The notes below the pieces were generated by a model. That model ran no database searches, was not told the DNA's origin, and was given only the letters and a program-made list of their open reading frames with translations. Below are positions 4,401 through 20,048 of a stretch of DNA of 21,461 nt, piece after piece; position 1 is the stretch's first letter, and every line of letters begins with the position of its first letter. This stretch comes from a virus, in IMG/VR virus record IMGVR_UViG_3300010883_000598, positions 1-21,461 of that record, one strand, 5' to 3'. The position numbers and the translations under genes were made by a program.

Positions 4401-7114
4401 ATATCAATGAAGTTATCGTCTCGGTTATCAATGTACATTGCAGTACCAGATGATAACGTAGCGTTATTAATTCTTAATTTACCAGTACCTGGGTCACTAT
4501 TTAATGTTGAACTATCGTAAGTATAATCAAAGGTTACACCACCGAATGAACCAGATGTTCCTTGTAAACCTAAAGTACCTTGTGGTCCTTGGATACCTTG
4601 AGTACCAGCACCTGTTAAACCTTGTAAGCCTTGAATACCCTGTGTGCCTTGAGCACCCTGAATACCTGCTGGGCCACGAGGAACGAATGTAATTAGAGTA
4701 GTTGGTCCGTGTACCGCGTTAACAGAAGTCTGCCAGTTAGTAACGTTACCATCAACATAATTAACATCCCAGTAACCGTAATTCTTTGAACCGCTGTCCC
4801 ATGTCCAACCAGTAATTTCGTATATTAACCAATGATGTCCAGCCGGGCCAGAACCATCGTCGTAATTACCTTCTTGTATTTTTAGATAACCTTTAACTGT
4901 ACCTGGTTGACCAGCAATAAAATCAAAGAAATCGTCTACTTGTTCTGCGAACTGATCAACAGGAATATCATCAATTGTAATTAATGTTGCAGCTGTTGGG
5001 TTAGCATTATTGAATTTGAAATTGTTTGTGCCAGGGTCAGTACCACCAAGTGTGTTATTAACAAAGTTCCATGGGAATGTTAATCCACCATATTGTCCTT
5101 GTTCGCCTTGTAAGCCTTGCAACCCTTGAATACCAGTTGTTCCTTGAACACCCTGAGTACCTTGTCCACCAGTACCACCCTGTAATCCCTGAATACCCTG
5201 TAGTCCTTGAGAACCTGTTATCCCTTGGGTACCTTGAGTACCTTGAATTGATTCGCCTTGAACACCCTGTAAACCCTGAAGGCCTTGGAATCCTTGGATA
5301 CCTTTTTCGCCTTGAATACCCTGAGTACCTTGGAAACCTAGTTGGCCTTGAACACCTTGAACACCCTGGATACCTTGTAATCCACGATCGCCATTTCTTG
5401 AGAATGTGACTCTTAAATTTGTAGAATTAGAAAATGCAGTTGCACCATTTAAACGTGTAACATCACATTGCCAATAACCAGTTTTATCTGTGATAAGATC
5501 AATTCTGAAAAGTGCTTGTTCAGCATAATTAGCAGAATTAACTACTCTAATATAACCTTTAGGTGAGCCTGTTAGAGCATCTAATTCAGTAAGTAAGCCA
5601 TCCATAACATTGACAGCGTTTGCTTCTTCGTCATCAATCCATAGTTTTAAGTTAGCAGATGAGAAGTTTGTAGAACTGAACCTTAAGTTACCAGAGCCTG
5701 GATCTGCATCATCAGTAGCAATACCGTAAGTATATTCGTATGAAATACCACCGAAGTCACCAGCTGAACCTTGTAAACCTTGTGGTCCTTGTAGGCCTTG
5801 AACACCCTGAGGTCCAACTTGACCTTGTGTACCTTGAACTCCTTGTAGGCCTTGAACACCCTGTATACCAGTTGTGCCTTGAACACCCTGTGGTCCTACA
5901 CGACCTTGAACACCTTGAGTACCTTGTAAGCCTTGAGGTCCTTGTGGTCCTTGAAGGCCTTGAACACCTCGATCACCAGAAACATCGAAAGCAACTATCA
6001 ATGGGTAACTAATAAAGGTACCTGGATTACCAGAATCTTCTATAACAAAATGTTCTTTAGTAGCAGAACCAGATAAGAATGTTACATCTAATTCCCAATA
6101 AGTACCACCAATATCTTCAACAATATTTTGTACTGAGAAAATTGCGTATCGTGATGGCTCATCGCGCTTTGTTACTTTAACATAAGCTTTATTAACAGAT
6201 GATGAACTAGCAATATATTGATATAGACCATCTAAGTTATTATTAAACGTGTCATCATCATTAATCCAAATCTTAGTAACACCAGTAAATGTTGTGTTTG
6301 TTGCTGGTGAATTAAAGGACATAAACCCGCCCGATGGAGCAGGAGATTCAGTTATTTGATTACCAAGTGAGTATTGAACTATTGCGCCAGAGTCATCACC
6401 ATTAAAGCCCTGCATTCCTTGAATACCAGTATCGCCCTGGATACCAGTTGTGCCTTGAATACCTTGAGGTCCTGCACGACCTTGCAAACCTTGAATACCA
6501 GTTTCGCCTTGAACACCTTGCACACCCTGTGGGCCACGATATCCTTGGATACCTTGAATACCTAAGTTACCTTGAACACCTTGTAAACCCTGAATACCTT
6601 TTGGACCTTGGAAACCACGATATCCTCGTTCGCCCTGGATACCTTCGTTACCAATTGTTCCTTGAACACCCTGAGGACCATTAGATCCTTGTAAACCTTG
6701 AACACCTCTAAATGATCCAATATTTACCCAAGTCGTGCCGTCGTAAATCCAAAGCTCGTCATCAGCGTCATCAATAACACCATCACCAACTGTAGCAGAT
6801 GGGAATGCGGTATTAAGAGTCGCTTGAGGATCGCCACCACTATCAACATCAGCAACTGCACCGATTATTGTAAAGCCGGGACCATAGTCGCCTTGAACAC
6901 CTTGGCCGCCTTGAATACCAGTTGTACCTTGAAGACCTTGAGGTCCAGTTCCTAACGCAAGCCAGTTTGTGCCGTCGGAGTATCTTAGCTCTCCATTATC
7001 AGCATAAACCACAGAACCTTCGAATGGTACTGGATCAAGAGTAATAGGAAAGGCTTGCGGTACGCCATGGCCGATTAATAGATTCTTTCCTGTGAGTGTT
7101 CCAAATTTGGACAT
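1466..7114 (-). CDS. Giant collagen-like tail fibre with four globular inserts and C-terminal S74 chaperone, 1882 aa
   Basis: ATG at 7112-7114 with GGAG 11 nt upstream; TAA at 1466-1468. Domain order by residue: 1-56 N-terminal cap, including 'LRYSDGTNWLALG', a likely virion attachment part. 57-75 is a short Gly-X-Y run. 76-136 is a small insert with 'LWIYDGTTWVNIG'. Collagen-like Gly-X-Y runs occupy 137-240, 381-453, 577-674, 814-856 and a long 977-1455. Four related globular domains lie between them (about 241-380, 454-576, 675-812, 857-976). 1456-1760 is a beta-rich, Gly/Ser/Thr-rich stalk. 1766-1882 is a peptidase S74 / intramolecular chaperone domain beginning SDESLKENV, with Ser1766 and Lys1771 as the expected self-cleavage pair. 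Triplets are mostly G-[I/L/V/T/P]-Q, that is Gln rather than Pro in the third position. In S74 proteins the chaperone trimerises the fibre and is then released. The protein is probably a long trimeric receptor-binding fibre. Confidence 0.9.
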   Translation of the reverse strand: MSKFGTLTGKNLLIGHGVPQAFPITLDPVPFEGSVVYADNGELRYSDGTNWLALGTGPQGLQGTTGIQGGQGVQGDYGPGFTIIGAVADVDSGGDPQATLNTAFPSATVGDGVIDDADDELWIYDGTTWVNIGSFRGVQGLQGSNGPQGVQGTIGNEGIQGERGYRGFQGPKGIQGLQGVQGNLGIQGIQGYRGPQGVQGVQGETGIQGLQGRAGPQGIQGTTGIQGDTGIQGMQGFNGDDSGAIVQYSLGNQITESPAPSGGFMSFNSPATNTTFTGVTKIWINDDDTFNNNLDGLYQYIASSSSVNKAYVKVTKRDEPSRYAIFSVQNIVEDIGGTYWELDVTFLSGSATKEHFVIEDSGNPGTFISYPLIVAFDVSGDRGVQGLQGPQGPQGLQGTQGVQGRVGPQGVQGTTGIQGVQGLQGVQGTQGQVGPQGVQGLQGPQGLQGSAGDFGGISYEYTYGIATDDADPGSGNLRFSSTNFSSANLKLWIDDEEANAVNVMDGLLTELDALTGSPKGYIRVVNSANYAEQALFRIDLITDKTGYWQCDVTRLNGATAFSNSTNLRVTFSRNGDRGLQGIQGVQGVQGQLGFQGTQGIQGEKGIQGFQGLQGLQGVQGESIQGTQGTQGITGSQGLQGIQGLQGGTGGQGTQGVQGTTGIQGLQGLQGEQGQYGGLTFPWNFVNNTLGGTDPGTNNFKFNNANPTAATLITIDDIPVDQFAEQVDDFFDFIAGQPGTVKGYLKIQEGNYDDGSGPAGHHWLIYEITGWTWDSGSKNYGYWDVNYVDGNVTNWQTSVNAVHGPTTLITFVPRGPAGIQGAQGTQGIQGLQGLTGAGTQGIQGPQGTLGLQGTSGSFGGVTFDYTYDSSTLNSDPGTGKLRINNATLSSGTAMYIDNRDDNFIDIATFLSTIDDSTSPIKGHFKITKVGSAEIFHLYTISSAVAIGGGYYNVGCAHVDGNGALANDDDITITFARTGDAGSTGSTGAQGTQGPQGTQGFQGLQGLTGAGAQGSTGSTGSQGVQGLQGSLGVGADGVQGIQGLQGVQGNLGIQGTQGLTGAGADGAQGTSGAQGVQGTQGVQGTTGSGTQGADGIGAQGIQGIAGAGGIGGQGTQGIQGVQGSDGPQGLQGGDGGEGQPGGPGSQGIQGTTGSGTQGIQGPQGADGFGFQGSSGQGTQGPQGLTGSQGLGGSGPQGTQGVQGSTGNDGPQGTTGDGIQGLQGPQGVSGVVGVGTQGLQGIQGTLGTQGLQGITGLGVQGPLGFQGAQGNEGAGSAGPQGPQGDLGIQGTQGPFGFQGTIGSTSAQGDTGIQGNQGTQGFDGGGGFQGIQGNLGTQGPQGLDGGTGGSGFQGADGIQGPGGFQGGTGVTGEGVQGPRGSQGLVGAGGQGPSGPQGPAGSEVGPQGSAGFQGSLGNAGPQGTIGGSGVGIQGLQGTGGNNGAQGPFGPQGVQGTAGGSTGLDIASLHTSGLQGTAMFITMVQGGSGVRPLYGTTSPNPGGEQNFFYTANDDELTLENLKIDGSATLNGSTITSWPSGGSAITVQDEGSSLATAASTINFVGAGVVASGTSATKTITIGGGGDANQNTFSNVAVSGQSTVAADTTTDTLTLVAGSNVTITTDTTTDSVTINSSGGGGGGYSTITAVGTNADLQLVFHTGGTALQADASNGLTFNPSSDELKVGGDGTFGGDGTAASWINTGSVASGIKSYMTGGTAAGVPIGRLSSEWSGSTWNVMNWTPGGVAISGWLTTSDYIVCSQDVDAVNFNSTSDESLKENVETIENALSKVINMRGVNFNWKENSQPGTGVIAQEIETVLPHVVTENNEGIKHVQYGNIVGTLIEAIKEQQRQIEALQEISHAPIEAGGATELLGLINDIESRLNLLEE
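1469..1819 (-). other. S74 intramolecular chaperone domain of the collagen-like fibre (predicted cleavage before Ser1766)
   Basis: The last 117 residues begin S-D-E-S-L-K. Known S74/ICA domains (phage endosialidase, MYRF) use a Ser and a Lys five residues later as the catalytic dyad and cut just before the Ser; this spacing is kept exactly. Downstream 'GVIAQEIETVLPHVV' matches the family core motif. A C-terminal heptad-like helix ('IVGTLIEAIKEQQRQIEALQEI') fits the trimeric coiled coil of the chaperone. Confidence 0.85.
2750..4186 (-). repeat. Long collagen-like Gly-X-Y segment (about 480 residues) with frequent Gly-X-Gly breaks
   Basis: This part of the fibre gene encodes residues 977-1455. 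At DNA level it is a dense array of degenerate 9-nt units (plus strand 'ccttg[a/t]...acc'). At protein level it is mostly G-x-Q triplets. Roughly every 15-40 residues the phase is broken by a Gly-X-Gly step (for example 'GTTGSGTQG', 'GADGFGFQG', 'GITGLGVQG'). The shorter collagen runs nearer the N-terminus have almost no such breaks. The array explains the many spurious open frames on the opposite strand. Confidence 0.9.
4187..6394 (-). repeat. Four paralogous globular domains separated by collagen-like spacers
   Basis: The domains are at 5975-6394, 5387-5755, 4679-5092 and 4187-4546 (120-140 residues each). Three begin with a 'GGxxxxYxY' or 'GGLTFPW' strand, then 'DPGxxxxxx[F/I]', then '[L/M/I]xI[D/N]D'. 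Next comes a helix ('LLTELDALTG', 'VDDFFDFIAG', 'IATFLSTIDD'), 'xxKGY[I/L]+[I/V]', an '[L/I]F/Y.I' strand, a 'GYW/Y..[D/G]V' strand and a closing 'ITFxRxGDxG' that leads straight into collagen triplets. The first copy is more divergent ('KIWINDD', 'GTYWELDVTFLSG'). They look like duplicated beta-rich knobs. I know similar domains from marine phage collagen-like proteins, but have no name for the family. Confidence 0.8.
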
Positions 7115-7157: not shown

Positions 7158-7583
7158 TTAGACAACGTCATCTTCCTCAGATTGGCCTAATGTGAACGAT
7201 AATGTAGCATGAATTGCTAAGTCCGTATCACCTATTACTTCTAGAGTGTCTCCACTCTTTAAGAACTGGCCGTTTAGCGGGATTGCAGTGGTTTCGTAAG
7301 CTGGTATTGGCATGTTTCTGATAACATAAAATTCAGCATTAAGATCTTCGCGGTGAAATCTCACGTCGACTCTTGCTGTAGATGCTGTTGTGTTACAGAA
7401 TATTAATGGCGAAATTATTTCACCAACGCCTGGTTCAACAGTTGTACTACCACCAAATACTAATTCCGGAACCTCGTATTGAGGTACTTCAACAAGTACT
7501 TGCCAGTTGGTAGATACGACCTTTTGAATCGCTACCGGTTTTGCGTCCGGTGCCTGCGATGTTGTGATTGTAGTGATTGGCAT
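7158..7583 (-). CDS. Probable virion structural protein, 141 aa
   Basis: ATG at 7581-7583, preceded by AGGA with a 7-nt spacer; TAA at 7158-7160. The gap from the stop of the 3739-aa gene is 13 nt, too short for its own promoter, so the two are probably co-transcribed. The protein begins MPITTITTSQAPDAKPVAIQ and is nearly all predicted beta strand. Visible segments are 'VLVEVPQYEVPELVFG', 'ISPLIFCNTTASTARVDVRF', 'MPIPAYETTAIPLNGQFLKSGDTLEV' and 'AIHATLSFTLGQSEED'. The pattern of a short Ig-like or jelly-roll sandwich with 'LNGQFLxSGDxLEV' is familiar to me from hypothetical structural proteins in marine T4-like phages. It may decorate or attach the neighbouring fibre. No enzymatic motif is seen. 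Confidence 0.8.
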   Translation of the reverse strand: MPITTITTSQAPDAKPVAIQKVVSTNWQVLVEVPQYEVPELVFGGSTTVEPGVGEIISPLIFCNTTASTARVDVRFHREDLNAEFYVIRNMPIPAYETTAIPLNGQFLKSGDTLEVIGDTDLAIHATLSFTLGQSEEDDVV

Positions 7584-7596
7584 ATCTTTATCCTAT

Positions 7597-10500
7597 TTAA
7601 ATTGATGCTCTACTATTAGAAGCTCTTCTTGCGAGTTTTCTAACAGAAGATGTAAATGGTCTACCTTCAATCCTTCCGGTTCGACCGTTAATTCTTAATC
7701 CTCTTGCGAAGTACTGGTTATTCAATTCATCAGCACCTGACCATCGGATTCTACCACCGTCTTCATTAAGTACCGAAGCGATTGCTGATATAGCAGAACC
7801 AAGGTTTCTAAAGTTAAGCGGTAACGCGTTTCTATTAACACCAGCCGATGCACCGTTGAACTGATGGGCAATGGATTCAACCAACGAACCGAATATCAAT
7901 GTATTAGGACGTAGTATGTTATCTTTAACACAGTCATTAAATAACCCTTCGATCATTAATGAGTGCTGTGAGTTAGGTGAGTAAGTAGCAACAATGTAAT
8001 CTCTCATCTTATCCCAAGCACCAGTAAATGCATCCAGAAGATCAGTATTGTTCGCACCATCAGATACCCAAGTTGTGCCATTCCAGTAATATATATTACC
8101 AGCGTAATAGTTGGTAGCGTAATTAGTAGCAACTATATATGAATGATTAAGTTTCATTCCGGTGATCGCTGATAGATCTGATAATTGAGTAACTGAACCT
8201 TGATACTTCAAGTCTTGTTTTGTTGGATTAAACACTGGGAATACATGACTACCTTTGAAGTCAAAGAATGCAGCAGTATATGTCATTGTTGCATTCGAAC
8301 TACCAAAGTCTGCGTATGTTGGAGCAGCAACATCAGGGTCATACTTCTGATATTTAAAGTCATTACTAACCGCTGTTAATAAGTTTTTAGCATCACGTCT
8401 TGTTAAGTTAAGATCGATAAACTTGTATGTCTTTCCAACATAACTAACTGTCTGGAATTGTAAAGACTCTCTTTGTTGGCCTAAGATGTTTTTAGCATCT
8501 GTAAACACAGCATTTAGATAAGTTGGCTCTTCAAGTAATGGCAATTGCTTAGTATCATTGTACAATTGAGTCTTGTAGAAGATATTTGCTAATCCTTCAA
8601 CCTTAACACTCTCAATAGTTGTTGCAACCTCTCCATTCTGAACCTGGCCAGCGTATTCACCAATTACTATATCTTTACAGATTTTTCCAAGATGTCTGTA
8701 AGACTTGGCAGTTGGTATTCTTTGATCTTCAGGTAATCTATATACTTGGTTCCAGAAGTAGAAATCCGCGTTCCATCTTGAAGCAGAGTTACCGCCGAAG
8801 TTCAAGTCATAACTGAATGCATCAAGTAAGAATCCTGTGTCTCTCTTACACTTAGCTTTGTTATAATCAAGTACATCAAAGTTATTATTTATGAAGGTTG
8901 TTACATCACTTGCAAGCTCTTCAGTACTATCGTCGATTGTTACGGCAGCTGTTGTTAGTTCAGCGTCGATCCATCCAGTATTACCTGGCTCAATCGCCGG
9001 TAATTCATCAGTATCATCAGCTCTTATAACTCCTTCGATATAAGCAATTAAATCGTGAGCTCTAGTGCCTTCTGTTGCTGTTGCAGCAGTACCCAAAGTA
9101 TTCTGAGGAGTGATTGTGTATAGTGTATTTGAAACATCAGTTTCTTGTACTACTCCATCAACAAGTGTACCAAGAATATTCAATATATCTGAATATTGGT
9201 TTCTTGTGTCAACTGGTAATACTGAAACACCGTTTTCGAAGTAGATACCAGCAGCTTGTCTTGTTGCGAAGTTTCCGCCATACTGAACATCGTGTGATAT
9301 AGCATCTACAATATATCCAATATCTCTTCTGCATTTAGCTGCAGGGAAACTCAATCCACTGTGTACACTGCTTAGATATGTAATTACTGCTTCAGCTATT
9401 GTATCTCTTTGATTATCAACTAAGTCTTTAGCTACTTTATAGTTATCTGCTACCCAAGCTTCTGATGGGAATATCATCTCTGGTATTGTTGATACGATTT
9501 CAATATTATCATCAACAGCGTTAGCAACTATTTGAACAAGGTCTCTTGCAGTTTTACATGTATTTGGATTAGCTCCAATTACTGCTTTGTTCTGTACTTG
9601 AGTTGTTTGATATGATTCAACACCACTCCAGTAGTCATACTGAGTTAGAATATCGCCCGTGTAGAATACTGCTTCTTTAGGGAATTCAGTTGTTGTAATA
9701 TCTACTGCACCAACAACATGCTCTACTATTTTAGACATGTGTAAGAATGCATCTCTTGTACCCATTCTTTGTTCAAGTTTTAATCCAGTATTTACAGCAT
9801 TCTCAAAATACATTCCTGCAGTTTGTACTGTTGCACTGTTTCCGCCGTATTGGATATCGTGAGATACAGCATCGATAATATAACCAGTATCTCTTCTGCA
9901 CTTAGTTTCACTAAATGGTAAGACATCGTAGAATGTAGATACATACTCGATTAAGCCTTCAGCAACAGTTGTTTTAATATTATCTATTGCGTTAAATGCA
10001 GCTATTTGAGCATCACTGTATGGTGCAGCAGCATCAGGTAAGTCATATGCCGGAGCCATTAACATGCCGTTGTCTTCGATAATTTGTGCTGATATATCAA
10101 ATAAATCTTCACCAGCAGCGGCAAGTAGAACTCCACCAGATGCACCACTGAAATCTTGAGTTTCACTATTACCAGAAGACTTAAGTGCGCCTAGATTTAT
10201 GTCTTGTATAATTAAATCTGCACAATCACCAAGATGTCTGAATGCAGCATATGAAGGTTCACGCTGATTTATAGGTAATCCAACATTTACACCATTCTCA
10301 AAGTATAGTCTAATAAAGTTGAGAGTACCAAAGTTACCACCGTGTTGTAGATCAAACGATATAGCATCGATTAAGTAACCTGTATCTCTTTGACACTTAG
10401 CAGTATCATAAGTATGTGAAGGTCTGTTAGCAGTAAGCCAAGCTATCATTTCAGCCTGTAAGAATACCTTGTTATTTTGTAATTGTGATCTACCATTAAT

Positions 10501-13500
10501 TTTATTAACATTAAGTGCAGTTGAAGTATAATTAATTACATCAGCAGCACTTCGGCCCTTAGTCATAATATCTATGATTTCGTCAAATGCTTCCTCAGTC
10601 TTAGTTTGAAGCGCTTGATTAGTTACAGCAGCAACTGCTTTAGCTTTGGCGAATTCAATACCTTTAACTGTTTCTATTAATTGTTCGTTAATTACTTTAT
10701 TAGTTCCAGGTGTTTCAATTCTATATGCAAGTCCGTTATGAACCGCGTTATAGTTTGAACCGGTTAACACGTCAACTTTAACTCCGTCAAGAAGTAAAGC
10801 AACATCACGCTTACACTTATCGCCATCGAATGTGTAATAACGATCTTTAATATACCCTTGAACTTCTTCAATGATAAAGTCTCTGTTACGTTGTAATTGC
10901 TTTCTTGCTAATGTTCTGTTAGAATCAAACGAAGCTTTAACAAGTGTTGGTAATTCATCATCTTCAATATTTGTATAATCAATGAATTTAGCAACAGTGT
11001 CAATTAAGTCGTGAACTGTAGTACCTGTAGCAGTGTTAACAGCAGTACCATCAGTATTTTGATAAGGACCAGTACTGATAGCATCGGCTAGCGCTGATAT
11101 AAATGTATGTGGTTGTTGACCTGAGCCACCATTTCCAACATTCATCGTAATTGTGTTTGCACCGACTTCAGTAATTGTTACTGGTTCACTATAATATGGA
11201 TGATGTTTCTGCGGTGAAGTATGACTTTGTACACCAGCTCCCATATCACAACTGAATGTAAATCCTTCAGGTGCTAACCAAATCTTATCTTTAACTTTAA
11301 GTGTGTGAGTACCGATCGTTGCAGTAAATACTCCAGTCGCTGGATTATATAAAGCGTTAGTTGGAGTAAATTTAGTATAAGTTGTTGTGTGAGCAACTTC
11401 TTTAACTACAGTTTCAGCAACGTCTGCAAGTCGTTTGAATGCAGCTTGTATTGGTTCACGTTGTTCACGAGGAAGAACATTAATCTTTTCTCTTAAACCA
11501 GATACGTTAGCAGTATCTTCGTAATCGGATAGTGTTTTAAACTGACCTCTTACTTTAATTGGCAATACGTTAGTTGATCGCTGTTGCTCGTAATCAGCAC
11601 TTTCAGAAGTAAATCTCTTAAAGTAATAATCGATAGCTTCTAATGTATTTTCGTTTCCGCCGTATTCAATATCACGAGATACAGCGTCTAGAATAATTCC
11701 AACATCACGAGTACATTTTTCTCTAACAATTGGTAATCCGTTATGCTCATCTCTTAGATATTCGATAACAGACTCTGTTAGATTTTCTGTTAAGCCGTCG
11801 ATTGCATTAACTGCAGGTTCCATAGCAACTTCAACTGAACCTTCGTTATGGTGCGGAAGATTATCTAAATTGTTATCTCTAATAATTTGAGTAGTTACAT
11901 TAACACCAGCTCTTGCAGCTTCACCAACTTCAACACCAGCATCTGTTAGTGTAACATCTTGAGAAACAGCGTTACCAGTTGTAGGAGTAACTGCTTGGTC
12001 TCTTACTATCTTGTAACAAACATTTGCAAGGTGCTCCCAAGTCTTAGCAGTAGGTAATTTCTGATCTTCAGGCAATGTACTGATTGCATTTTCGTAATAA
12101 AGTCTTGAGAAGTTAACAGAAGCAGCATTTGAGCCGTACTTAACATCCCATACTAGAGCATCAATCATGTAGCCTGTGTCTCTTTCGCACTTAGCAACAC
12201 TATAATTTAACGATGGGAATTGATCAGCAACGTAAGCAGTAACTTCAGCTTGTAAGAATGCTCTATTGTTAATTAATGCAGAAGCTCCAGTTGTATGGTT
12301 AACACTTACTGCAGCATCATCACCGTAAGTAAGAGCGTTAGCATTACCAGAACCGTTTGACATGATATCAACAATTTCATCGAATGAAGCATTAGCTCTT
12401 GTAAGTGCAGTTCCTGTTACTGAAGGATCAGCCGCAACTTTTGCTTTTAGATAGTTGATCGCTCCAACTGTTTGTGTAAGTTGATCGTAGATAACTTTAT
12501 TAGCACCGACAGTTCCAATCCTATATCCTAATCCCATAAACACTGCGTGGTAATTAGAATTAGTAGCAAGGTCTCGTCTAACTGCGTCTAAGATAAATCC
12601 TGAATCTCTTGAACACTTAGCACCATTAAATACAAAGTATTGTGTATCTAGATACGCTTGAACATCAGCCGCAAGGAATGCTTTGTTATTCTGTAGTTGT
12701 TCTCTTGCATATTGACCTTGACCGTTCGTAGATACATGAGTTACTGCATGCTTTTCACAAGATACAAATGTGTGAGTACCACCCGAACTAGCACCTAAAT
12801 TAACAGTAAATGTGTTTGTTGTAACTGCAGTAATCTGGAATGGTTTTCTATAAGTAACATCACCTTTTCTTGGGTATGAATGCTGTGTTGCATCGCCGTC
12901 AAGTGAACAAGTATACGTGAAACTGTATGGTGCAAACTCAACCCAATCGTCTGTTGTTAAACCGTGATTTGGAATAGTTACTACGCTCTCACCAGTACTA
13001 GGTACAAATGTTGCAGTGGTAGGTGTGAAGTGTTTAATCTGTGCAGCAGGGTCAGTAAATACTAGGGCGTCTGAATCAATTGCTCCAACGTCTGCTCTAA
13101 CAAATGTATGAGTTCCACCAACAGCAGGTCCTACATTCATTGATATTGAGTCAGAAGTTACCGAGTCAATTTCAATTGGAGTCATGTAAGTTTTAGTGTG
13201 GTGAGCTTCAGGAATTGCATGTTCAGTAGCGTTTCCGTCAAGAGCACATGTAAATACAATAGAGCCAGTTTTAATTTGTACGTAATCACCAGCTTCTAAA
13301 TTATGTCTGCCGATTGTTGCAACAAATACACCAGTGCCACCATCGTATGTAGCGTTTGTTGGTGTGTATGTTGAAATGTATTTAGCAGTCTTAATATTAT
13401 CTGTAGTAGCTGATATAAATGTATGTGGTGATAGATCAGAAGATGTACCAACATTAACAGTAATAGTTGTTCCAGTTGTTGAAGCAATTACTACAGGTTT

Positions 13501-16500
13501 CTTATATGCAGGATGCTGTCTTTCGCCTTGTATTGCATTTGGAAGAGCAGATACAAAGGTGTGTGCTCCACCGCCATTTGCACTAACACCAACGTTAGCT
13601 GTAATGGTTGTAGAATCAACTGCAGTCAATGTAATCTTTTTCTTCCAGAAAGTATGGTGTGCTTCAGGTACCGGATGATTTGTTGCATTACCGTCTATAG
13701 CACAAGTAAATACGATACTCTCTGGTGCAACTTCAATCTGATCACCAGCTTTCAGTTTATGAGCACCGATAGTTGCCGTGAATACACCTGTTGCTGGGTC
13801 GTAGGTAGCATTAGTAGGTGTGAAATTAGTAATCGTTGTTGCTGGATATGTATAATTAGTTACGTTGCCATCAGTATCACAAGTAAATGTCATGCTGTTA
13901 GCAGCAATATTAATTTTATCGCCAGGTTGTAAATCATGAGCACCAACTGTTATAACTGTTAAACCAGTGCCTGGGTTATAAGTAGCGTTAGTTGTTGTAT
14001 ATGTTTTACCACTGCTCTGTAGAATACTTGTAATCTTATCGATAGCTTCGTTACTTCTAAATCCTGAAGCATTATCGTCGATACTTACCATGTGAGTAAT
14101 TGAGTTATCTAAAGCAGATACAAATGTATGAGGATAAGCAGCACTGTAACCAACAAACATTGTAATAGTTGTTGATGTTACTGACTCAACAGAACATGGG
14201 TGGTTATAGAATGCGTGATGAGCCATTGGGACAGCATCGTTCTGTACTCCACTTCCTGTATCACAACTGAATGTTATACCACCTGATAAGAACTTAACAT
14301 AGTCACCAGGGTGTAATCCGTGCTTACCGATAGTCGCTGAGAACATTCCGCTTTCAGGATTGTAAGTAGCAGTTGTTGGTGTAAAGCTTAGACCAACTCC
14401 TTTAGCAGGAACAATTGCGTTTGCTACGGCTGATACGAAGGTGTGCGGATATTGACCTGAGCCACCATCTCCAACATTCATTGTAATTGTTGTATCAGTT
14501 ACACCAGTAATTGGGCAAGGTGTTTGCCAATATGGGTGATGTGATTGTGGAGAAGTATGATTAACTTCACCAGCGCCCATATCACAACTCATTGTAATAC
14601 CGTTATCAGCAAGCATTATATAATCACCAACTGCCATACCGTGATTACCGATTGTTGCTGTGAATACACCTGTTGCTGGATCGTAGACAACGTCGGTTAC
14701 AGTAAATCCAGATTCAACATTATTTAAATTAATTCTTGATTTGATTTCATTCATTGCACCGATAGTTTCTACTAACTGATCGTTAATAACATTATCTGCA
14801 AGAGTAGTACCTGAACGATAAGCAATACCAGTTTGGATTGCATTATAGTTAGAACCAGTTAAGATATCTCTTTCAACTGCTGGTAATATGTATTTTTGTG
14901 TATCTCTACGACATTTCTTAGAGTCATATCTGAAATATGTTTCATCAATATAACCTTCAACATAATCTGCCAAGAATGTTTTATTAGCTTGTAGTTGTTT
15001 ACGTGCATTTTTATTATCAGCAGCAATTGAAGCATTCTCGCTCCATCTAATATCAGCACCTAAGATTGATACAGATTTTGATAAAGCTTCAACAAATCTA
15101 TGTTCATCAACTATTGCCGATACACCAACATTAATTGTAATCGATGTTTCGTTAGCACCTAATACTTCAAGAGGAGCTCCTGCAGCAGGGTCAGTCGCTC
15201 TTGGATATGCGTGTCTTGTTAAGTAATTATCTCTTGAACAAGTAAATACAAAACCGCCAGTTCTCAATAGTACTTTTCTGCCAGTACTTAAACCGTGACT
15301 TGAGCTAATCGCTTGTGGAGCAGCCGAAACAAATGTGTGAACTTGTTGACCATTAGCACCACCGTAACCAACATTCATTGTTATAACATTACCAGACACG
15401 TTAGTAATTTTAACTGGCTTGTTATAATATGGGTGATGAGCTTCAGGAACTGCGTGGTTTTGTACACCTGAACCAGCATTACAACTAAATGTAATTGACG
15501 CAGGTTTAAATCTGATATAATCACCAACTACTAATTCGTGAGTACCAATCGTTGCAGTCATTACACCGGATGCAGGGTTATAAGTAGCATTAGAAACATT
15601 AAACTTCTTGCTTGTGTTCAATGTTATAACCATCTTACCAGATGCGGCGTCGTAAGTTGCCTTAGTTGGTGTGTACGCTGTATTTTTGTTTTCGAGTATT
15701 TCTAATATTTCATCAAACGCAGCATCTGTTCTTGCAGTAGCTTCATAAGAATCACCGTCAAGTAACTCGTTAGTTTGATCTTTAAGTCTCTTATATGCAG
15801 CAACAGTTTCGTTATTTTGACTTTCAATAACAGTTTTTGCGGCAGCCATATAGTATGCTTCACCAGCAGTAACTGCGTTATAGTTTGTATCAAACAACAT
15901 GTCGTTTTTAACAGCAGGTAAGATGTAATCAGATACATCACGTCTACATGCTTTACTATCGTATGCGTAAAACTCTTCGTTATTTTCAATCCAATCAATA
16001 AGAGTATCTGTGATAAACTGTCTGTTGTCTTGTAATAATTCTCTAGCAGCAACCTGTGGTTTGGTTGTATCTTGCCAGATAATTGGATTCATGTTTTCTT
16101 CGCCGTACTTAACGACGTTGTACATCTCTTGGAAACTTGTATCTACTCTTGGAATAATTTCGTTATTAGCATTAGCAAATATAGTATTAATACGACTCTG
16201 TAGGAATACATTAGCACCTATTGTTGCTTCTAGCTGATCGCCTACAACTTTAGATGATATTGGAGATCTATAAGTAATACCTGCTAGTCTACTCCAGTAG
16301 TTAGAATCAGTTGCTACGTCATAACCGACACCGTCTATTATAATACCAGTATCACGTTCGCATTTAACTGAGTCGTAACCAGTATAACCTAAACCGCCTG
16401 AAGCGACTGAGTCTGTAAGGTATTCAGTCATGTCTGTAATAATGTCGTCAGAATTATCCATTAAGGAAGATCCGAATACAGTATTACCTACAATAGTTGC

Positions 16501-18816
16501 AGTAGTATTTTTAGGTTGGAAGAACTGTGATGTTCCTTTTGCTCTCATTGAGATATCGCCGAACTGAGTACCACTGTTGTTCAGCGTCATCTGTCCACCG
16601 TTTAGGGCATAGAATGCACATCGTACGAAGATTGATAGAGAACCGATACCGTTAATACCAGCACCATCCCTTGCAACATAACCTAAACCGTTTTGAGTAC
16701 GAGGTGTGAAACCAAAACATAAGACGTAAGTATATAGTGAGTCTGGATCAAGTACTCTTCTGTCTGCAAGTACACAACCACCGCCTCGACCAACTTCTCT
16801 GTTAGGGAAGTCATCAATACCAAGAGATTCAATTGTACCAGCACCACCAGATTCAGATGTTATTGTATCACCAATTCCGAAACCAATTCCGTTTTTCAGA
16901 TTACGAACTCTAATTGTTCGGTTAACTGCTATATCAGCAGTGTATCCTTTTGCTGTATCTAATGTATCGTCCCAAGTTAGGAAACCAACAGCACCAGATG
17001 AGAATTTAATTTCGTCATCAAGAGCCCATGCTCCTGTTAAACCAGCTGCTAATACAAACGTTTGACCAAGGTCAGCAAGTGTACCTTTAGTATTGTAAGG
17101 GTTAAGAGGTGGCTCAACATCTTGACGTAAGAAGTTAGATAACTGAGTACTATCTCTTAAGTAAGGTGAACGTAATAGTTTAGCACCAGGTCGATAAGCA
17201 ATCGCGAATCCACCTTCTGGGAAGTCAAAGTTATCAACTTTAAAGTTCTGATAACCGAATCCTTGGGCATAACAACCAGAACCAACTAAGATTCCGTTAT
17301 TGTTTTCAAATCCAGGAAGCATTTCAATAACAGTTGCGTACTGACCTGCAGTTGAAGTTATTGAACAGTCATCTGGTAATTGAAGATTACCCTTTGTATA
17401 ATAAGTACCTGGACCAACAGAAATGTGAACCGCGTTATTAATTGCGTTACGATTTAATTCACCACCTGCTTTTTCTAAACAAAGTTCAAATGCTCTTTCC
17501 AGTGTTCTTACTGGTTGCATCATTGTACCTGGGTTTGTATCATCACCAGAACCAGCGTCTACATTAACTTTAAGTGCTTGAGCTGTTTTCTTAGAAACTT
17601 CATCAAAGAGTTGGTTGAAATTAATCTGTTCAGTATCACCAGTTCTTTCGTTACGAATAGCAAAGTATGACTCGTCGTCCATTGGCGCATCGAACTCTTG
17701 CGTCAAATTCATGTCGAAGTCTACAAGATTCGTATTTGTTATTGTTCCGCCGGTAAAGGTTGAACCAGATACCGAGCCATTTTCAAAGGTTGAATTATTA
17801 GAAGATAAACCATCTGCAGAGGAGCTTCTGATTGTCATATCAGTTGCTACAACATTCTGCATTGTGCCTTGGAAAGCAGTATTGGATATTGTACCATCAG
17901 TGAAAACAGAATCATCAATAGTTGAATTTGTTAACGTTACGTTATTACCAGTACCATTGTTAAATTCAGAACTTGTAATAATTGTGTTATTAACAGTGCT
18001 GTCATTAAGCTGTGATGAAGTAATTACGAAGTTATTTGCAGTACCATTTAATAGAGCAGTATCTGTAAATATGTTATTTGCGCCAGTACCATCTGAAAAA
18101 TCTGAACCGGTTAAATCTACATTAACACCAGTTGAGTCTAGCAATGTACCAGAAGTAAATGACGAACTTGTTATAATTACATTGTTTGCAGTACTATCAG
18201 CAACCGCACCAGATGTAAACGTAGAAGAAGTCATTGTTACATTGTTTGCAGTACTATCAGTGATTGATGAATCATCAATAATAGAATTTGTTAATGTGAC
18301 ATTGTTACCTGTGCCGTTATTAAACTCAGAATTTGTTATTACGACTGCATTGGCAGTTCCGTTATTAAACTCGGAATTAGTTATGATAACATTATTGGCA
18401 GTACTATTTGTAATTGTACCATCGTCGAACGATGAATTAGCAATAGTTAGGCGTTCACCAGTAGAAGCTACTAACGAACCGTCAGTAAACGAAGATGAAG
18501 TAATGACAATATTGTTAGCATCTGAATTTGTAATAACAGTAGTATCAATAGTACCACGAATCCAATCAGTATCTTCAATATTTGAGTTATCAATTGTAAC
18601 ATTATCGAGAGTACTGTCTGACATCTCAACGCCAGAGATCGTTCCGCCTGTAATAGTGATGCGATCAAATATCTCGTACTGAATAGCTTGTACAAGTTCT
18701 TTTCTTGAGATATTCTTGGTACCATCGTCACCTTGAACAAGGTTAACAATTACAAGTAGGTCTTCCGACCTGGTATTTGCACCGGTAATGGAACCTAGTT
18801 CTGAAATCTTTGCCAT
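7597..18816 (-). CDS. Giant modular tail-fibre / adhesin-like structural protein, 3739 aa
   Basis: ATG at 18814-18816, preceded by GGGA at 10 nt; TAA at 7597-7599. Residues 1-60 form an N-terminal cap ('SELGSITGANTRSEDLLVIV', 'GTKNISRKELVQAIQYEIFD'), probably for attachment to the baseplate. About 60-365 is a Thr/Asn/Ser-rich pentapeptide-like beta-helix. About 415-805 is a second beta-helix-type region opening with 'VDAGSGDDTNPG' and containing 'ALNGGQMTLNNSGTQFGDI'. From about 815 to 3400 two module families alternate. One is beta-rich ('SATIGKHGLHPGDYVKF', 'TFSC', 'HHPYY', 'PHTFVSA'), about nine copies. The other is helical ('KCxRDxGxIxDAxxxD'), eleven copies. About 3540-3739 is a conserved-looking end ('NDCVKDNILRPNTLIFGS', 'GRIRWSGADELNNQYF') with a basic tail. 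T4 gp37 has about 1026 residues, so this is exceptionally long. Similar modules occur in marine T4-like phage structural proteins. Its role in host recognition is inferred. Confidence 0.9.
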   Translation of the reverse strand: MAKISELGSITGANTRSEDLLVIVNLVQGDDGTKNISRKELVQAIQYEIFDRITITGGTISGVEMSDSTLDNVTIDNSNIEDTDWIRGTIDTTVITNSDANNIVITSSSFTDGSLVASTGERLTIANSSFDDGTITNSTANNVIITNSEFNNGTANAVVITNSEFNNGTGNNVTLTNSIIDDSSITDSTANNVTMTSSTFTSGAVADSTANNVIITSSSFTSGTLLDSTGVNVDLTGSDFSDGTGANNIFTDTALLNGTANNFVITSSQLNDSTVNNTIITSSEFNNGTGNNVTLTNSTIDDSVFTDGTISNTAFQGTMQNVVATDMTIRSSSADGLSSNNSTFENGSVSGSTFTGGTITNTNLVDFDMNLTQEFDAPMDDESYFAIRNERTGDTEQINFNQLFDEVSKKTAQALKVNVDAGSGDDTNPGTMMQPVRTLERAFELCLEKAGGELNRNAINNAVHISVGPGTYYTKGNLQLPDDCSITSTAGQYATVIEMLPGFENNNGILVGSGCYAQGFGYQNFKVDNFDFPEGGFAIAYRPGAKLLRSPYLRDSTQLSNFLRQDVEPPLNPYNTKGTLADLGQTFVLAAGLTGAWALDDEIKFSSGAVGFLTWDDTLDTAKGYTADIAVNRTIRVRNLKNGIGFGIGDTITSESGGAGTIESLGIDDFPNREVGRGGGCVLADRRVLDPDSLYTYVLCFGFTPRTQNGLGYVARDGAGINGIGSLSIFVRCAFYALNGGQMTLNNSGTQFGDISMRAKGTSQFFQPKNTTATIVGNTVFGSSLMDNSDDIITDMTEYLTDSVASGGLGYTGYDSVKCERDTGIIIDGVGYDVATDSNYWSRLAGITYRSPISSKVVGDQLEATIGANVFLQSRINTIFANANNEIIPRVDTSFQEMYNVVKYGEENMNPIIWQDTTKPQVAARELLQDNRQFITDTLIDWIENNEEFYAYDSKACRRDVSDYILPAVKNDMLFDTNYNAVTAGEAYYMAAAKTVIESQNNETVAAYKRLKDQTNELLDGDSYEATARTDAAFDEILEILENKNTAYTPTKATYDAASGKMVITLNTSKKFNVSNATYNPASGVMTATIGTHELVVGDYIRFKPASITFSCNAGSGVQNHAVPEAHHPYYNKPVKITNVSGNVITMNVGYGGANGQQVHTFVSAAPQAISSSHGLSTGRKVLLRTGGFVFTCSRDNYLTRHAYPRATDPAAGAPLEVLGANETSITINVGVSAIVDEHRFVEALSKSVSILGADIRWSENASIAADNKNARKQLQANKTFLADYVEGYIDETYFRYDSKKCRRDTQKYILPAVERDILTGSNYNAIQTGIAYRSGTTLADNVINDQLVETIGAMNEIKSRINLNNVESGFTVTDVVYDPATGVFTATIGNHGMAVGDYIMLADNGITMSCDMGAGEVNHTSPQSHHPYWQTPCPITGVTDTTITMNVGDGGSGQYPHTFVSAVANAIVPAKGVGLSFTPTTATYNPESGMFSATIGKHGLHPGDYVKFLSGGITFSCDTGSGVQNDAVPMAHHAFYNHPCSVESVTSTTITMFVGYSAAYPHTFVSALDNSITHMVSIDDNASGFRSNEAIDKITSILQSSGKTYTTTNATYNPGTGLTVITVGAHDLQPGDKINIAANSMTFTCDTDGNVTNYTYPATTITNFTPTNATYDPATGVFTATIGAHKLKAGDQIEVAPESIVFTCAIDGNATNHPVPEAHHTFWKKKITLTAVDSTTITANVGVSANGGGAHTFVSALPNAIQGERQHPAYKKPVVIASTTGTTITVNVGTSSDLSPHTFISATTDNIKTAKYISTYTPTNATYDGGTGVFVATIGRHNLEAGDYVQIKTGSIVFTCALDGNATEHAIPEAHHTKTYMTPIEIDSVTSDSISMNVGPAVGGTHTFVRADVGAIDSDALVFTDPAAQIKHFTPTTATFVPSTGESVVTIPNHGLTTDDWVEFAPYSFTYTCSLDGDATQHSYPRKGDVTYRKPFQITAVTTNTFTVNLGASSGGTHTFVSCEKHAVTHVSTNGQGQYAREQLQNNKAFLAADVQAYLDTQYFVFNGAKCSRDSGFILDAVRRDLATNSNYHAVFMGLGYRIGTVGANKVIYDQLTQTVGAINYLKAKVAADPSVTGTALTRANASFDEIVDIMSNGSGNANALTYGDDAAVSVNHTTGASALINNRAFLQAEVTAYVADQFPSLNYSVAKCERDTGYMIDALVWDVKYGSNAASVNFSRLYYENAISTLPEDQKLPTAKTWEHLANVCYKIVRDQAVTPTTGNAVSQDVTLTDAGVEVGEAARAGVNVTTQIIRDNNLDNLPHHNEGSVEVAMEPAVNAIDGLTENLTESVIEYLRDEHNGLPIVREKCTRDVGIILDAVSRDIEYGGNENTLEAIDYYFKRFTSESADYEQQRSTNVLPIKVRGQFKTLSDYEDTANVSGLREKINVLPREQREPIQAAFKRLADVAETVVKEVAHTTTYTKFTPTNALYNPATGVFTATIGTHTLKVKDKIWLAPEGFTFSCDMGAGVQSHTSPQKHHPYYSEPVTITEVGANTITMNVGNGGSGQQPHTFISALADAISTGPYQNTDGTAVNTATGTTVHDLIDTVAKFIDYTNIEDDELPTLVKASFDSNRTLARKQLQRNRDFIIEEVQGYIKDRYYTFDGDKCKRDVALLLDGVKVDVLTGSNYNAVHNGLAYRIETPGTNKVINEQLIETVKGIEFAKAKAVAAVTNQALQTKTEEAFDEIIDIMTKGRSAADVINYTSTALNVNKINGRSQLQNNKVFLQAEMIAWLTANRPSHTYDTAKCQRDTGYLIDAISFDLQHGGNFGTLNFIRLYFENGVNVGLPINQREPSYAAFRHLGDCADLIIQDINLGALKSSGNSETQDFSGASGGVLLAAAGEDLFDISAQIIEDNGMLMAPAYDLPDAAAPYSDAQIAAFNAIDNIKTTVAEGLIEYVSTFYDVLPFSETKCRRDTGYIIDAVSHDIQYGGNSATVQTAGMYFENAVNTGLKLEQRMGTRDAFLHMSKIVEHVVGAVDITTTEFPKEAVFYTGDILTQYDYWSGVESYQTTQVQNKAVIGANPNTCKTARDLVQIVANAVDDNIEIVSTIPEMIFPSEAWVADNYKVAKDLVDNQRDTIAEAVITYLSSVHSGLSFPAAKCRRDIGYIVDAISHDVQYGGNFATRQAAGIYFENGVSVLPVDTRNQYSDILNILGTLVDGVVQETDVSNTLYTITPQNTLGTAATATEGTRAHDLIAYIEGVIRADDTDELPAIEPGNTGWIDAELTTAAVTIDDSTEELASDVTTFINNNFDVLDYNKAKCKRDTGFLLDAFSYDLNFGGNSASRWNADFYFWNQVYRLPEDQRIPTAKSYRHLGKICKDIVIGEYAGQVQNGEVATTIESVKVEGLANIFYKTQLYNDTKQLPLLEEPTYLNAVFTDAKNILGQQRESLQFQTVSYVGKTYKFIDLNLTRRDAKNLLTAVSNDFKYQKYDPDVAAPTYADFGSSNATMTYTAAFFDFKGSHVFPVFNPTKQDLKYQGSVTQLSDLSAITGMKLNHSYIVATNYATNYYAGNIYYWNGTTWVSDGANNTDLLDAFTGAWDKMRDYIVATYSPNSQHSLMIEGLFNDCVKDNILRPNTLIFGSLVESIAHQFNGASAGVNRNALPLNFRNLGSAISAIASVLNEDGGRIRWSGADELNNQYFARGLRINGRTGRIEGRPFTSSVRKLARRASNSRASI
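12740..15605 (-). repeat. Tandem beta-rich 'TATIG-GDY-TFSC-HHPYY-HTFVSA' modules in the giant protein
   Basis: Copies of about 95-100 residues run roughly at 1072-1160, 1161-1250 (divergent), 1370-1468, 1478-1572, a split copy 1606-1664 plus 1763-1808, 1665-1762, 1816-1913 and 1925-2024. One further outlying copy lies near 2480-2580 (DNA about 11080-11380). The pattern is '[FY]TPTxATYxPxTG', 'xATIGxHxLxxGDxI', 'xITF[ST]Cxx[DG]G', 'HxxPxxHHPYYxxP', 'ITxVxxxTITMNVG' and 'xHTFVSAxxxAI'. The alternating pattern predicts a beta sandwich per module. Each full copy has one Cys, and most have a His pair. Confidence 0.85.
13531..13824 (-). repeat. Complete beta-module nested inside another copy
   Basis: These 294 nt (98 codons, in frame) encode residues 1665-1762, from 'FTPTNATYDPATGVF' to 'SALPNAI', which are the normal borders of a module. 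The preceding copy stops halfway at 'NVTNYTYPATTITN'. The sequence after the insert ('QGERQHPAYKKPVVI', 'TITVNVG', 'SPHTFISATTDNI') supplies precisely the missing second half. A whole module therefore sits inside another. Confidence 0.75.
17745..18640 (-). repeat. Pentapeptide-like beta-helix repeats at the N-terminus of the giant protein
   Basis: Residues about 60-358 repeat every 5 and, more strictly, every 20 residues (60 nt), for example 'STANNVTMTSSTFTSGAVAD' followed by 'STANNVIITSSSFTSGTLLD'. A hydrophobic residue (I/L/V/M/F) recurs every fifth position among Thr, Ser, Asn, Asp and Gly. This suggests a square right-handed beta-helix of the pentapeptide-repeat type. At DNA level short direct repeats are visible, such as 'attgtttgcagtactatcag' at 18181 and again at 18241. 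Confidence 0.8.
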
Positions 18817-18878: not shown

Positions 18879-20048
18879 TTACGATTTTAACTGATCTTCT
18901 AAATCATTTACCTTGTCGCTTAACTCTTTAATCGACTCTATCAATAGAGGGATCAATTGGTCATAACGAACTGCTTTATATGTACCACCATTTCTTTCGT
19001 GGTCAAATACAACATTAGGAAGCACTTTTTCAACTTCCTGTGCAACAACTCCCGGAATAGTTTCACGGGGTTTATCTTTATAATTAAATGTATAACCACT
19101 AATTTCACTAATTTTTTCTAATGGTTTTTCTATAACTTTTAAATTTTCTTTTAATCTGATGTCTGAACCGCTGTAATTAGTAACAATATCACCAGTAACA
19201 GTTAATGCACCATCTACTGCTAAGTTTCCGGCTTGGGTAATATCACCAGTAACCGAAACTAAGCCAATTACTTCTAAGTCGCTTGCTGTTAATTTACCAG
19301 CTAAACCGAAGTCTCCGGTTTGGTTAATATCACCAGTAACAGTCAGTGTGCCTGTATAAGTATCGTTAGCATTACTTCTTAAAAAGGCGGTACTATCTAA
19401 ATTATCGAGTGTTTGCGCGTTTACATTACTGCCGCCGTCAAAATCTGTATCGTTAACCCAAGCTGTACCATTATATTTTAATACTTGGCCAGATGAAGCA
19501 TTTGTAATTGTAACATCTGTAAGTTCATTAACAGCAACTGATGATACAACACCCGTTAACTGAGAACCATCACCAATGAAACTAACTGCAGTAACATTTT
19601 CAATTGCTGTTAAATTAGGTACAGTAAGCATACCATTAGTTGCTAGACTAAATTTATCATCTCCAGCACCTGTGTCAATAATAAAGTTTCCATTACTATC
19701 TTTAAGACCAGCATTCCAAGTAATACTACCGTTTGTAAATTGTGCTTGTCCACCAGTACCATGAGAAACTATTAGGGCTGCCTGGGATGCACCATTAATC
19801 TTGGTGTCAGCATTTACCTGAATAGTAGCTCCACCAGTTTTTGGTCCGATACTATCAGATTGTAGTAAAGTATTAGCAACAACGTTAGTTGCTGTAAAAT
19901 TACCAGCTAAGATAGCATTGCCGTTAGTAGTATCGCCACCAGCAGTAAGAGTATCAGTCTTAATAATATTTACAATCTCATTGGTTTTATCAAACCAGTT
20001 CTGGAATGTACCAGAGGTTGCAATATTCTGTAAATTAGCCTTTGCCAT
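18879..20048 (-). CDS. Tail fibre-type protein with C-terminal S74 self-cleaving chaperone, 389 aa
   Basis: ATG at 20046-20048 overlaps the TAA of the upstream 61-aa gene by one base (TAATG), a typical coupled junction; GGAA lies 8 nt upstream. The N-terminus ('NIATSGTFQNWFDKTNEIVN') resembles the baseplate-attachment start of T4-like marine phage fibres. The middle is beta-rich, with 'SFIGDGSQLTGV', 'ELTDVTITNASSGQVLKYNG' and repeated 'LTVTGDI' strands, as in fibre shafts. From residue 295 the S74 domain starts with SDIRLKENL. Ser295 and Lys300 have the expected dyad spacing and 'GVVAQEVEKVLPNVV' is the family core. The tail 'LIPLLIESIKELSDKVNDLE' is a coiled coil. Expected products are a fibre of about 294 residues and a released 95-residue chaperone. 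Host recognition is inferred. Confidence 0.88.
   Translation of the reverse strand: MAKANLQNIATSGTFQNWFDKTNEIVNIIKTDTLTAGGDTTNGNAILAGNFTATNVVANTLLQSDSIGPKTGGATIQVNADTKINGASQAALIVSHGTGGQAQFTNGSITWNAGLKDSNGNFIIDTGAGDDKFSLATNGMLTVPNLTAIENVTAVSFIGDGSQLTGVVSSVAVNELTDVTITNASSGQVLKYNGTAWVNDTDFDGGSNVNAQTLDNLDSTAFLRSNANDTYTGTLTVTGDINQTGDFGLAGKLTASDLEVIGLVSVTGDITQAGNLAVDGALTVTGDIVTNYSGSDIRLKENLKVIEKPLEKISEISGYTFNYKDKPRETIPGVVAQEVEKVLPNVVFDHERNGGTYKAVRYDQLIPLLIESIKELSDKVNDLEDQLKS
18882..19166 (-). other. S74 intramolecular chaperone domain of the 389-aa fibre (predicted cleavage before Ser295)
   Basis: The S-D-I-R-L-K motif at residues 295-300 keeps the Ser-x4-Lys arrangement of S74 autoproteases. It is followed by the 'GVVAQEVEKVLP' core. 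This is a second, clearly divergent copy of the domain ending the 1882-aa protein. Confidence 0.85.

Follow-up and report, generated by a model that had tools for sequence, protein, structure and literature searches.

The giant protein encoded in the virus record studied here is best read, with a probability of about 0.7, as an adhesin or side fibre borne by the virion of a T4-like marine phage, in which beta-barrels are inserted recursively into a globin-like rod of constant length. What is new about it is the occurrence of beta modules nested within one another together with helical modules resembling phycobiliproteins. Its size is not new, since cyanophage giants with the same modules are already known: module-bearing frames of 6376 aa in Syn33, 7124 aa in P-SSM7 and 7312 aa in P-SSM4 (a weak match in the last case, E 2.5e-4) led us to discard size as a novelty. 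The first-pass annotation, made from the letters alone, had placed the protein among the larger phage structural proteins, which is overstated given cyanophage frames of about 7,000 aa. Nevertheless, the giants of marine T4-like phages rank with the largest virion-type proteins, and hardly any of their domains has an annotation; their two recurring modules can now be given a predicted fold.

An intact giant gene in a conserved tail cluster

The window, that is, the whole 21,461-base IMG/VR virus record IMGVR_UViG_3300010883_000598, contains one open reading frame at 7597-18816 on the minus strand, which starts with ATG and encodes 3739 aa (P0001) with 0 internal stops. The single intact 11.2-kb frame reported in the first pass is thus exact in its coordinates. 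The gene is neither split nor frameshifted nor an assembly artefact, because dozens of complete homologous frames were found on other contigs (about 42-43, of 2227-4115 aa, duplicates among them), with the same N-terminus and followed by the same downstream neighbours, a gene of 140-165 aa and then one of 1300-2100 aa. All complete relatives share the start M(A/S)KI(S/T)EL...ITG.NTR, and the N-terminus of the giant lay inside an intact long frame in 22 of the 29 records searched. A search of NCBIfam gave no match above the cut-off.

The clade consists of uncultured marine T4-like phages with a conserved tail-gene cassette, which surrounds the giant gene in dozens of contigs. Long contigs carrying close relatives (137-221 kb) encode a T4-type gp23 that is 62-65% identical to the gp23 of other phages, the matches being to phages of Stenotrophomonas, Sinorhizobium, Methylophilales, Pelagibacter and cyanobacteria. 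In a relative, G003, the genes run gp25, gp6, one for 1068 aa, gp9, one for 746 aa, gp8, one occupying the VrlC position, a fibre gene of S74 type, the giant, and then genes for a 141-aa protein, a large protein, a 112-aa protein and more large proteins. The tail or fibre neighbourhood recognised earlier is therefore borne out by S74-type fibre genes on both sides of the giant and by the gp25-gp6-gp9-gp8-VrlC baseplate genes upstream in the relative. PHROG matches of the giant were to tail fibre or virion structural families, with E-values down to 1e-133. Syn33 has gp6, the giant, gp9, a 1721-aa protein, gp8 and VrlC in this order, so that there the modules belong to another gene of the tail cluster.

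Modules and terminal regions of the giant

Modules were called with HMMs trained on the modules of the window and its relatives. The giant contains 11 full helical modules (85-135 bits) and 1 degenerate one, as well as 7 intact beta modules (125-143 bits), all these scores being far above chance. Another 4 part-modules make up 2 further beta modules, which brings the number to 9. These counts reproduce the description of two interleaved families with about nine beta and eleven helical modules. The interleaving stood, while the nesting of beta modules in each other and in helical modules had been overlooked.

All features of the giant lie on the minus strand and are given here from the N-terminus onwards. 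The first 50 residues, MAKISELGSITGANTRSEDLLVIVNLVQGD (18667-18816), are near-identical in all complete relatives and represent a candidate virion attachment region. They are followed by a pentapeptide-like repeat region (residues 51-380, 17677-18666; Pfam PF13599, Pentapeptide_4, E 2.1e-8, below the curated cut-off) and by a region resembling a parallel beta-helix (residues 381-783, 16468-17676), in which a tail-spike-like motif, GSGDDxNPGT...TLxxA, was read from the sequence. The double beta-helix proposed for the N-terminus is thus plausible, its first part corresponding to a sub-threshold family match and its second to a motif. No match to the beta-helix region was found among 50,697 GenBank phage records.

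Helical modules H1 (C819ERD, 16096-16467) and H2 (C957RRD, 15682-16047) come next. Then follows a split host beta module, host 1, whose segment A (15619-15696, HMM positions 5-32) is separated from segments BC (15067-15300, positions 32-110) by a full inserted beta module, inner1 (15301-15618, positions 7-111). The N-terminal part of helical module H3 (C1302RRD, 14731-15006) precedes the tandem beta modules b3 and b4 (14092-14730), which stand ahead of the last helix of H3, FRSNEAIDKITSIL (14020-14091); this helix resumes at about residue 1585 and was assigned by alignment, corresponding to helix 668-686 of the structure model. The second split beta module, host 2, consists of segments AB (13840-14019, positions 6-67) and segment C (13387-13524, positions 65-111) around inner2 (13528-13839, positions 7-110), and is followed by beta modules b7 and b8 (12736-13395), the latter modelled by AlphaFold2. 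Next are helical modules H4 (C2068SRD, 12346-12708), H5 (C2210ERD, 11923-12282) and H6 (C2368TRD, 11317-11814), the last with an internal insertion and called as two HMM pieces, 1-81 and 67-123. Beta module b9 (11071-11397) is followed by H7 (C2668KRD, 10552-10908), H8 (C2808QRD, 10126-10491), H9 (C2973RRD, 9643-9999), H10 (C3162RRD, 9061-9432), H11 (C3323KRD, 8608-8949) and the degenerate H12 (8347-8496), in which TRRD replaces CxRD.

The C-terminal domain (7600-8346) is conserved and specific to the clade. With the last 289 residues as query, 253 IMG/VR relatives were obtained, and the 80 kept are 63-92% identical to the giant, in agreement with the conserved C-terminus noted before; among the 50,697 GenBank phage records it had no match.

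Complete relatives have 11-13 helical modules each, except for 9 in L082, and their intact beta modules range from 0 (L082) to 10 (L118). On a helical module, the beta modules sit in the loops on either side of the last helix; b3 and b4 cut off FRSNEAIDKITSIL from the rest of H3. L082, a protein of 2227 aa with nine helical and zero beta modules, looks like a naked backbone.

Beta modules are nested within each other

Both split host modules are interrupted by one intact module each, at two fixed loop positions. In host 1 (residues 1041-1250) the arrangement in HMM positions is [5-32] full [32-110], so that the part-modules meet at 32/32, and in host 2 (residues 1600-1810) it is [6-67] full [65-111], with the break near 66/66. 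Four relatives (L108, L026, L038 and L008) carry host 1 uninterrupted, as an empty site with a clean junction, and these modules are 64-68% identical to the rejoined host of the window and at most 41% identical to any other window module. AlphaFold2 models a beta module with ten strands at a pLDDT of about 90; the break points fall in the loops between strands 3/4 and 6/7, and for the nested fragment 3+10+7 strands are predicted, with a pLDDT of about 80 there.

When the beta arrays were written as words of A, B and C segments, 9 of the 12 distinct arrays parsed as properly nested, covering nearly all occurrences; the collected loci overlap and are related, so the occurrences cannot be counted as separate events. 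A(ABC)BC and arrays containing AB(ABC)C were each seen in dozens of frames, and the chance of a proper parse for a random order of six segments is about 3.5%. The remaining three words parse imperfectly: an L120-type nest, in which a weak segment A was missed by the short HMM, and two words with extra C segments. Read from its sequence, L120 has a nest of four levels, A1(A2B2C2 A3B3(A4(A5B5C5)B4C4)C3)B1C1.

On this sequence evidence, self-nesting of the beta modules is close to certain. Tandem copying of modules does happen, as seen in ABCABC arrays, and the split modules could in principle be out-of-phase tandem duplications instead of nested domains. Such duplications are very improbable given that the break points are complementary and recur at the same two positions, that nesting is proper to a depth of four, and that uninterrupted hosts survive in relatives. 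The nearest window relative of the inner module is b9, at 60% identity, and the donor copies therefore probably came from the same gene. Recursive insertion, with six-level nesting, has been described for the SI3 domain of cyanobacterial RNA polymerase (PMC13114784). There too domains lie repeatedly inside one another, although fold and protein are unrelated, whereas the nesting of the giant varies among close relatives and empty sites survive. The growth rule of these giants, by which a barrel is recursively copied into the loops of barrels and empty sites are kept, amounts to a natural experiment in domain insertion.

The predicted fold of the beta module resembles an endosialidase barrel

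The first-pass annotation could assign no function to either module family; in both cases a likeness had been overlooked, that of the predicted beta fold to the endosialidase/E1-FCCH barrel and that of KCxRD to the CxRD bilin site of phycobiliproteins. Among solved structures, the beta module model best matched two endosialidases, those of phi92 and K1F, and the FCCH domain found in E1 enzymes, with modest Z-scores of 7.2-8.0, and Foldseek gave a probability of 1.00 for its match to the phi92 endosialidase (4hiz). A hint of FCCH at the sequence level was also obtained from Pfam, below threshold. In the K1F endosialidase, S460, S468 and G504 are part of a polysialic-acid-binding beta-barrel (PMC12632334). 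The K1F stretch matched by the beta module, 424-509, spans all three.

Both the endosialidase barrels (EndoNF of K1F, phi92) and E1 FCCH resemble the beta module in its predicted fold and in the setting of a small barrel within a larger protein. They differ in that the giant lacks a catalytic propeller, has many copies of the barrel and has an invariant Cys and two His of its own. Neither Pfam and PHROGs nor a sequence search of the PDB revealed a catalytic sialidase propeller in the giant. Among 469 distinct beta modules, G24, C52 (100%), P64 and H99 (99.8%) are invariant or nearly so, and H33 is present in 97%. His33, Cys52 and His99 could possibly form a metal site. With one beta module as query, plasmids gave no match, and a single-protein scan of genome contigs found no modules in cellular genomes.

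Helical modules are likely related to bilin-binding globins

In the model of the nested fragment, the first 17 structural matches of the helical part were all phycobiliproteins (Z 11.3-14.5, the next match having 8.0), although this part has a pLDDT under about 55. A model of better confidence again matched phycobiliproteins, with Z up to 9.3. A Foldseek search with a 696-residue model was set aside, having returned multi-domain chance alignments only, with a TM of about 0.1.

Sequence profiles pointed to the same family. A profile of 50 helical modules had 5 matches under E 10 in the PDB, of which 3 were phycobiliproteins (E 0.4-1.1), and in this alignment KCxRDxGY of the module falls on the bilin cysteine. 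The commonest Pfam family was Phycobilisome (PF00502), weakly matched by 5/50 helical modules with a best E of 4.4e-4. Aligned by hhalign with 34 phycocyanin-type proteins, the helical modules obtained an E of 1.2e-5 and a score of 36.9, compared with 11.9 +/- 2.1 (maximum 19.6) in 60 column shuffles and 10 for the reversed control. When a phycobiliprotein HMM was run over the phage frames, its best 40 matches were all in helical modules, and 24 forward matches but 0 reversed decoys exceeded 8 bits.

CxRD is the bilin-binding motif of phycobiliproteins, and bilin-binding globins (BBAGs, bilin biosynthesis-associated globins) also occur in non-photosynthetic bacteria (PMC10151467). Among 766 distinct helical modules its Cys and Asp are present in 100% and its Arg in 99.2%, compared with a mean column identity of 37% (sample of 50). 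In distant cyanophage modules C and D are kept and R is lost in 6/16. R93 and Y97, invariant in phycobiliproteins, are not conserved in the helical modules.

Homology of the helical module with bilin-binding globins is likely. Phycobiliproteins and BBAGs (PF00502) resemble it in predicted fold, in the register of CxRD, which agreed in both search directions, and in profile similarity. In contrast to them, the giant has about 11 fused copies interrupted by beta-barrels, its E-values are weak, and R93 and Y97 are not kept; furthermore, BBAG genes cluster with heme oxygenase and a bilin reductase, whereas those two genes, where clade genomes have them, lie tens of kb from the giant. No literature on phycobiliprotein-like domains in phage virions was found in a search outside which most subscription journals fell.

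Heme oxygenase and bilin reductase genes lie side by side in 3 of the 9 clade records (G001, G002 and G009), tens of kb from the giant. In these gene pairs, which resemble a PcyX cassette (G001:143997-145454, G002:37854-39158, G009:4437-5689), the bilin reductase is of the ferredoxin-dependent kind; neither psbA nor CpeT was found in any of the nine clade records. Among contigs of at least 130 kb, a small and non-random sample, 4 had both bilin reductase and helical modules, 1 the reductase only and 3 modules only, with no significant association; P-SSM2 and G046 carry a reductase without modules, and G003, G004 and G049 carry modules without a reductase. Modules were present in 6/8 cyanophages (in one weakly) and in 0/4 T4-like phages of other hosts, a distribution that is confounded with phylogeny.

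Three readings of the helical modules can be weighed against these data. The one that comes nearest to an even chance, while staying short of it, is that they descend from bilin-binding globins but today serve structure alone: nothing is bound, and it is packing that keeps Cys, Arg and Asp. This draws on the same sequence and fold evidence and is favoured by the modules in phages without bilin genes, by the loss of R in some cyanophage modules and by the beta module, which also has an invariant Cys and no obvious ligand; a Cys that is invariant in 766/766 distinct modules is, however, hard to explain through packing alone. Convergence, by which a generic helical bundle acquired CxRD by chance, is improbable: middling Z-scores are common for helical bundles and the PDB profile E-values are just 0.4-1.1, but independent signals (hhalign against its controls, the reverse HMM search, Pfam and two structure models) agree in register.

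It is equally doubtful that the helical modules still function as bilin-binding globins, with a linear tetrapyrrole on the CxRD cysteine at about 11 sites, forming a tail chromoprotein supplied with bilins by heme oxygenase and bilin reductase of host or phage. This would be an addition to the adhesin or side-fibre reading and does not exclude it. In its favour are the alignment of the PDB profile, Pfam, hhalign and reverse HMM signals at the bilin Cys, the phycobiliproteins as top predicted-fold matches in both models, the near-invariant CxRD, the bilin genes of G001, G002 and G009 and, among the T4-like isolates tested, the restriction of modules to cyanophages. Against it stand the low confidence of the helical part in the model that gave Z 14.5, the weak Pfam matches, the unconserved R93 and Y97, the lack of association between reductase carriage and modules, the absence of CpeT from the nine records and the loss of an intact CxRD in 6/16 distant cyanophage modules, C and D staying. 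We therefore consider it unlikely that the giant binds bilin today. More doubtful still is the wider proposal that virion tails in a large group of marine T4-like phages carry bilin-loaded globin arrays (about 11 per chain) of phycobiliprotein type, which would make the particle pigmented and possibly light- or redox-responsive, so that phage bilin genes would serve the virion too and not only host photosynthesis. Phage bilin-synthesis genes serve a purpose that has been called enigmatic where the hosts are probably not cyanobacteria (PMC11480375) and unclear where the host is Prochlorococcus, in which standard phycobilisomes are missing (PMC2984593). If the helical modules bind bilins, this would offer a possible answer to why phages carry such genes.

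Proposed role of the giant and closest known systems

In the adhesin or side-fibre reading, the N-terminus (MAKISEL...) would most likely dock the protein on the baseplate or fibre region. About 11 globin-like helical modules, distant kin of phycobiliproteins, would form a backbone of constant length, and a variable number of small beta-barrels would project from its loops and, through insertion, from the loops of other beta modules. The barrels would most likely touch host-surface glycans. The gene would evolve as beta modules are copied into others already present, at two loops that tolerate insertion. Presence in virions is suggested by the annotation of distant homologues (Syn9, Syn33 and P-SSM7) as virion structural, and attachment, backbone role and glycan binding are likewise put forward as predictions.

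The proposal that similar modules recur in marine T4-like phages proved correct, both families being found in cyanophage proteins. The giant carries the beta and helical modules of PHROG 701/5342/18802/4527, and the cyanophage giants of these families (Syn33_092, PSSM7_090, S-MbCM7_026 and S-WAM2 gp224 among them) contain both kinds at about 26-45% identity; in the P-SSM7 giant partial beta modules also look nested. These proteins, annotated as virion structural or short tail fibre, differ in their N- and C-terminal domains and have fewer helical modules per protein. Also, in Syn33 and P-SSM7 the giant stands ahead of gp9, whereas here the giant is preceded by the VrlC-position protein and a fibre gene. 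The long tail fibre of S-CREM2, gp85, which is present in virions by mass spectrometry, was considered as a relative and rejected, having zero modules.

The T4 long tail fibre protein gp37 resembles the giant in its tail-gene neighbourhood and in the suspected fibre role of the giant, but the giant has no S74 or tip domain. The giant is presumably several times longer than gp37. In Pfam and PHROGs it matched neither the T4-type distal fibre families (gp34-37) nor an S74 or tip domain; such domains were found in its neighbours. Of the earlier description as a fibre protein the fibre neighbourhood holds; the giant itself is at most a putative trimeric fibre, and it carries no S74 chaperone of its own.

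Neighbouring genes

The upstream neighbour of the giant (18879-20048, minus strand) encodes a 389-aa tail-fibre protein by PHROGs, whose C-terminus matches many fibre families. The next gene after the giant (7158-7583, minus strand), conserved in the cassette, encodes a 141-aa protein with a weak match to phrog_1276. The resemblance is to the N-terminal part of that family, the C-terminal part of which resembles the beta module, so that the two may be fused elsewhere. Beyond it lies a gene (1466-7114, minus strand) for a 1882-aa collagen-like fibre protein with an S74 chaperone (Pfam Collagen 3e-72, Peptidase_S74 4e-13), in which 11 collagen stretches are interspersed with non-collagen blocks. 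A 149-aa gene (1015-1464) between this fibre gene and a 113-aa gene is not at this place in most relatives, and its product had no significant family match in Pfam, PHROGs or NCBIfam. The 113-aa protein (617-958) matches phrog_3304 (L-shaped tail fibre assembly) and phrog_1084.

In G003, the 1068-aa protein (G003:125332-128538) is of the baseplate-wedge type; its C-terminal region is hydrolase-like, and it contains a short piece of phrog_701, a cyanophage giant family. The 746-aa protein of the baseplate cluster (G003:121169-123409) matches phrog_15006, a tail fibre family, and has a weak protease-family match besides. The same tail cluster holds a second giant frame (G003:75607-87459), of 3950 aa and with an S74-like end.
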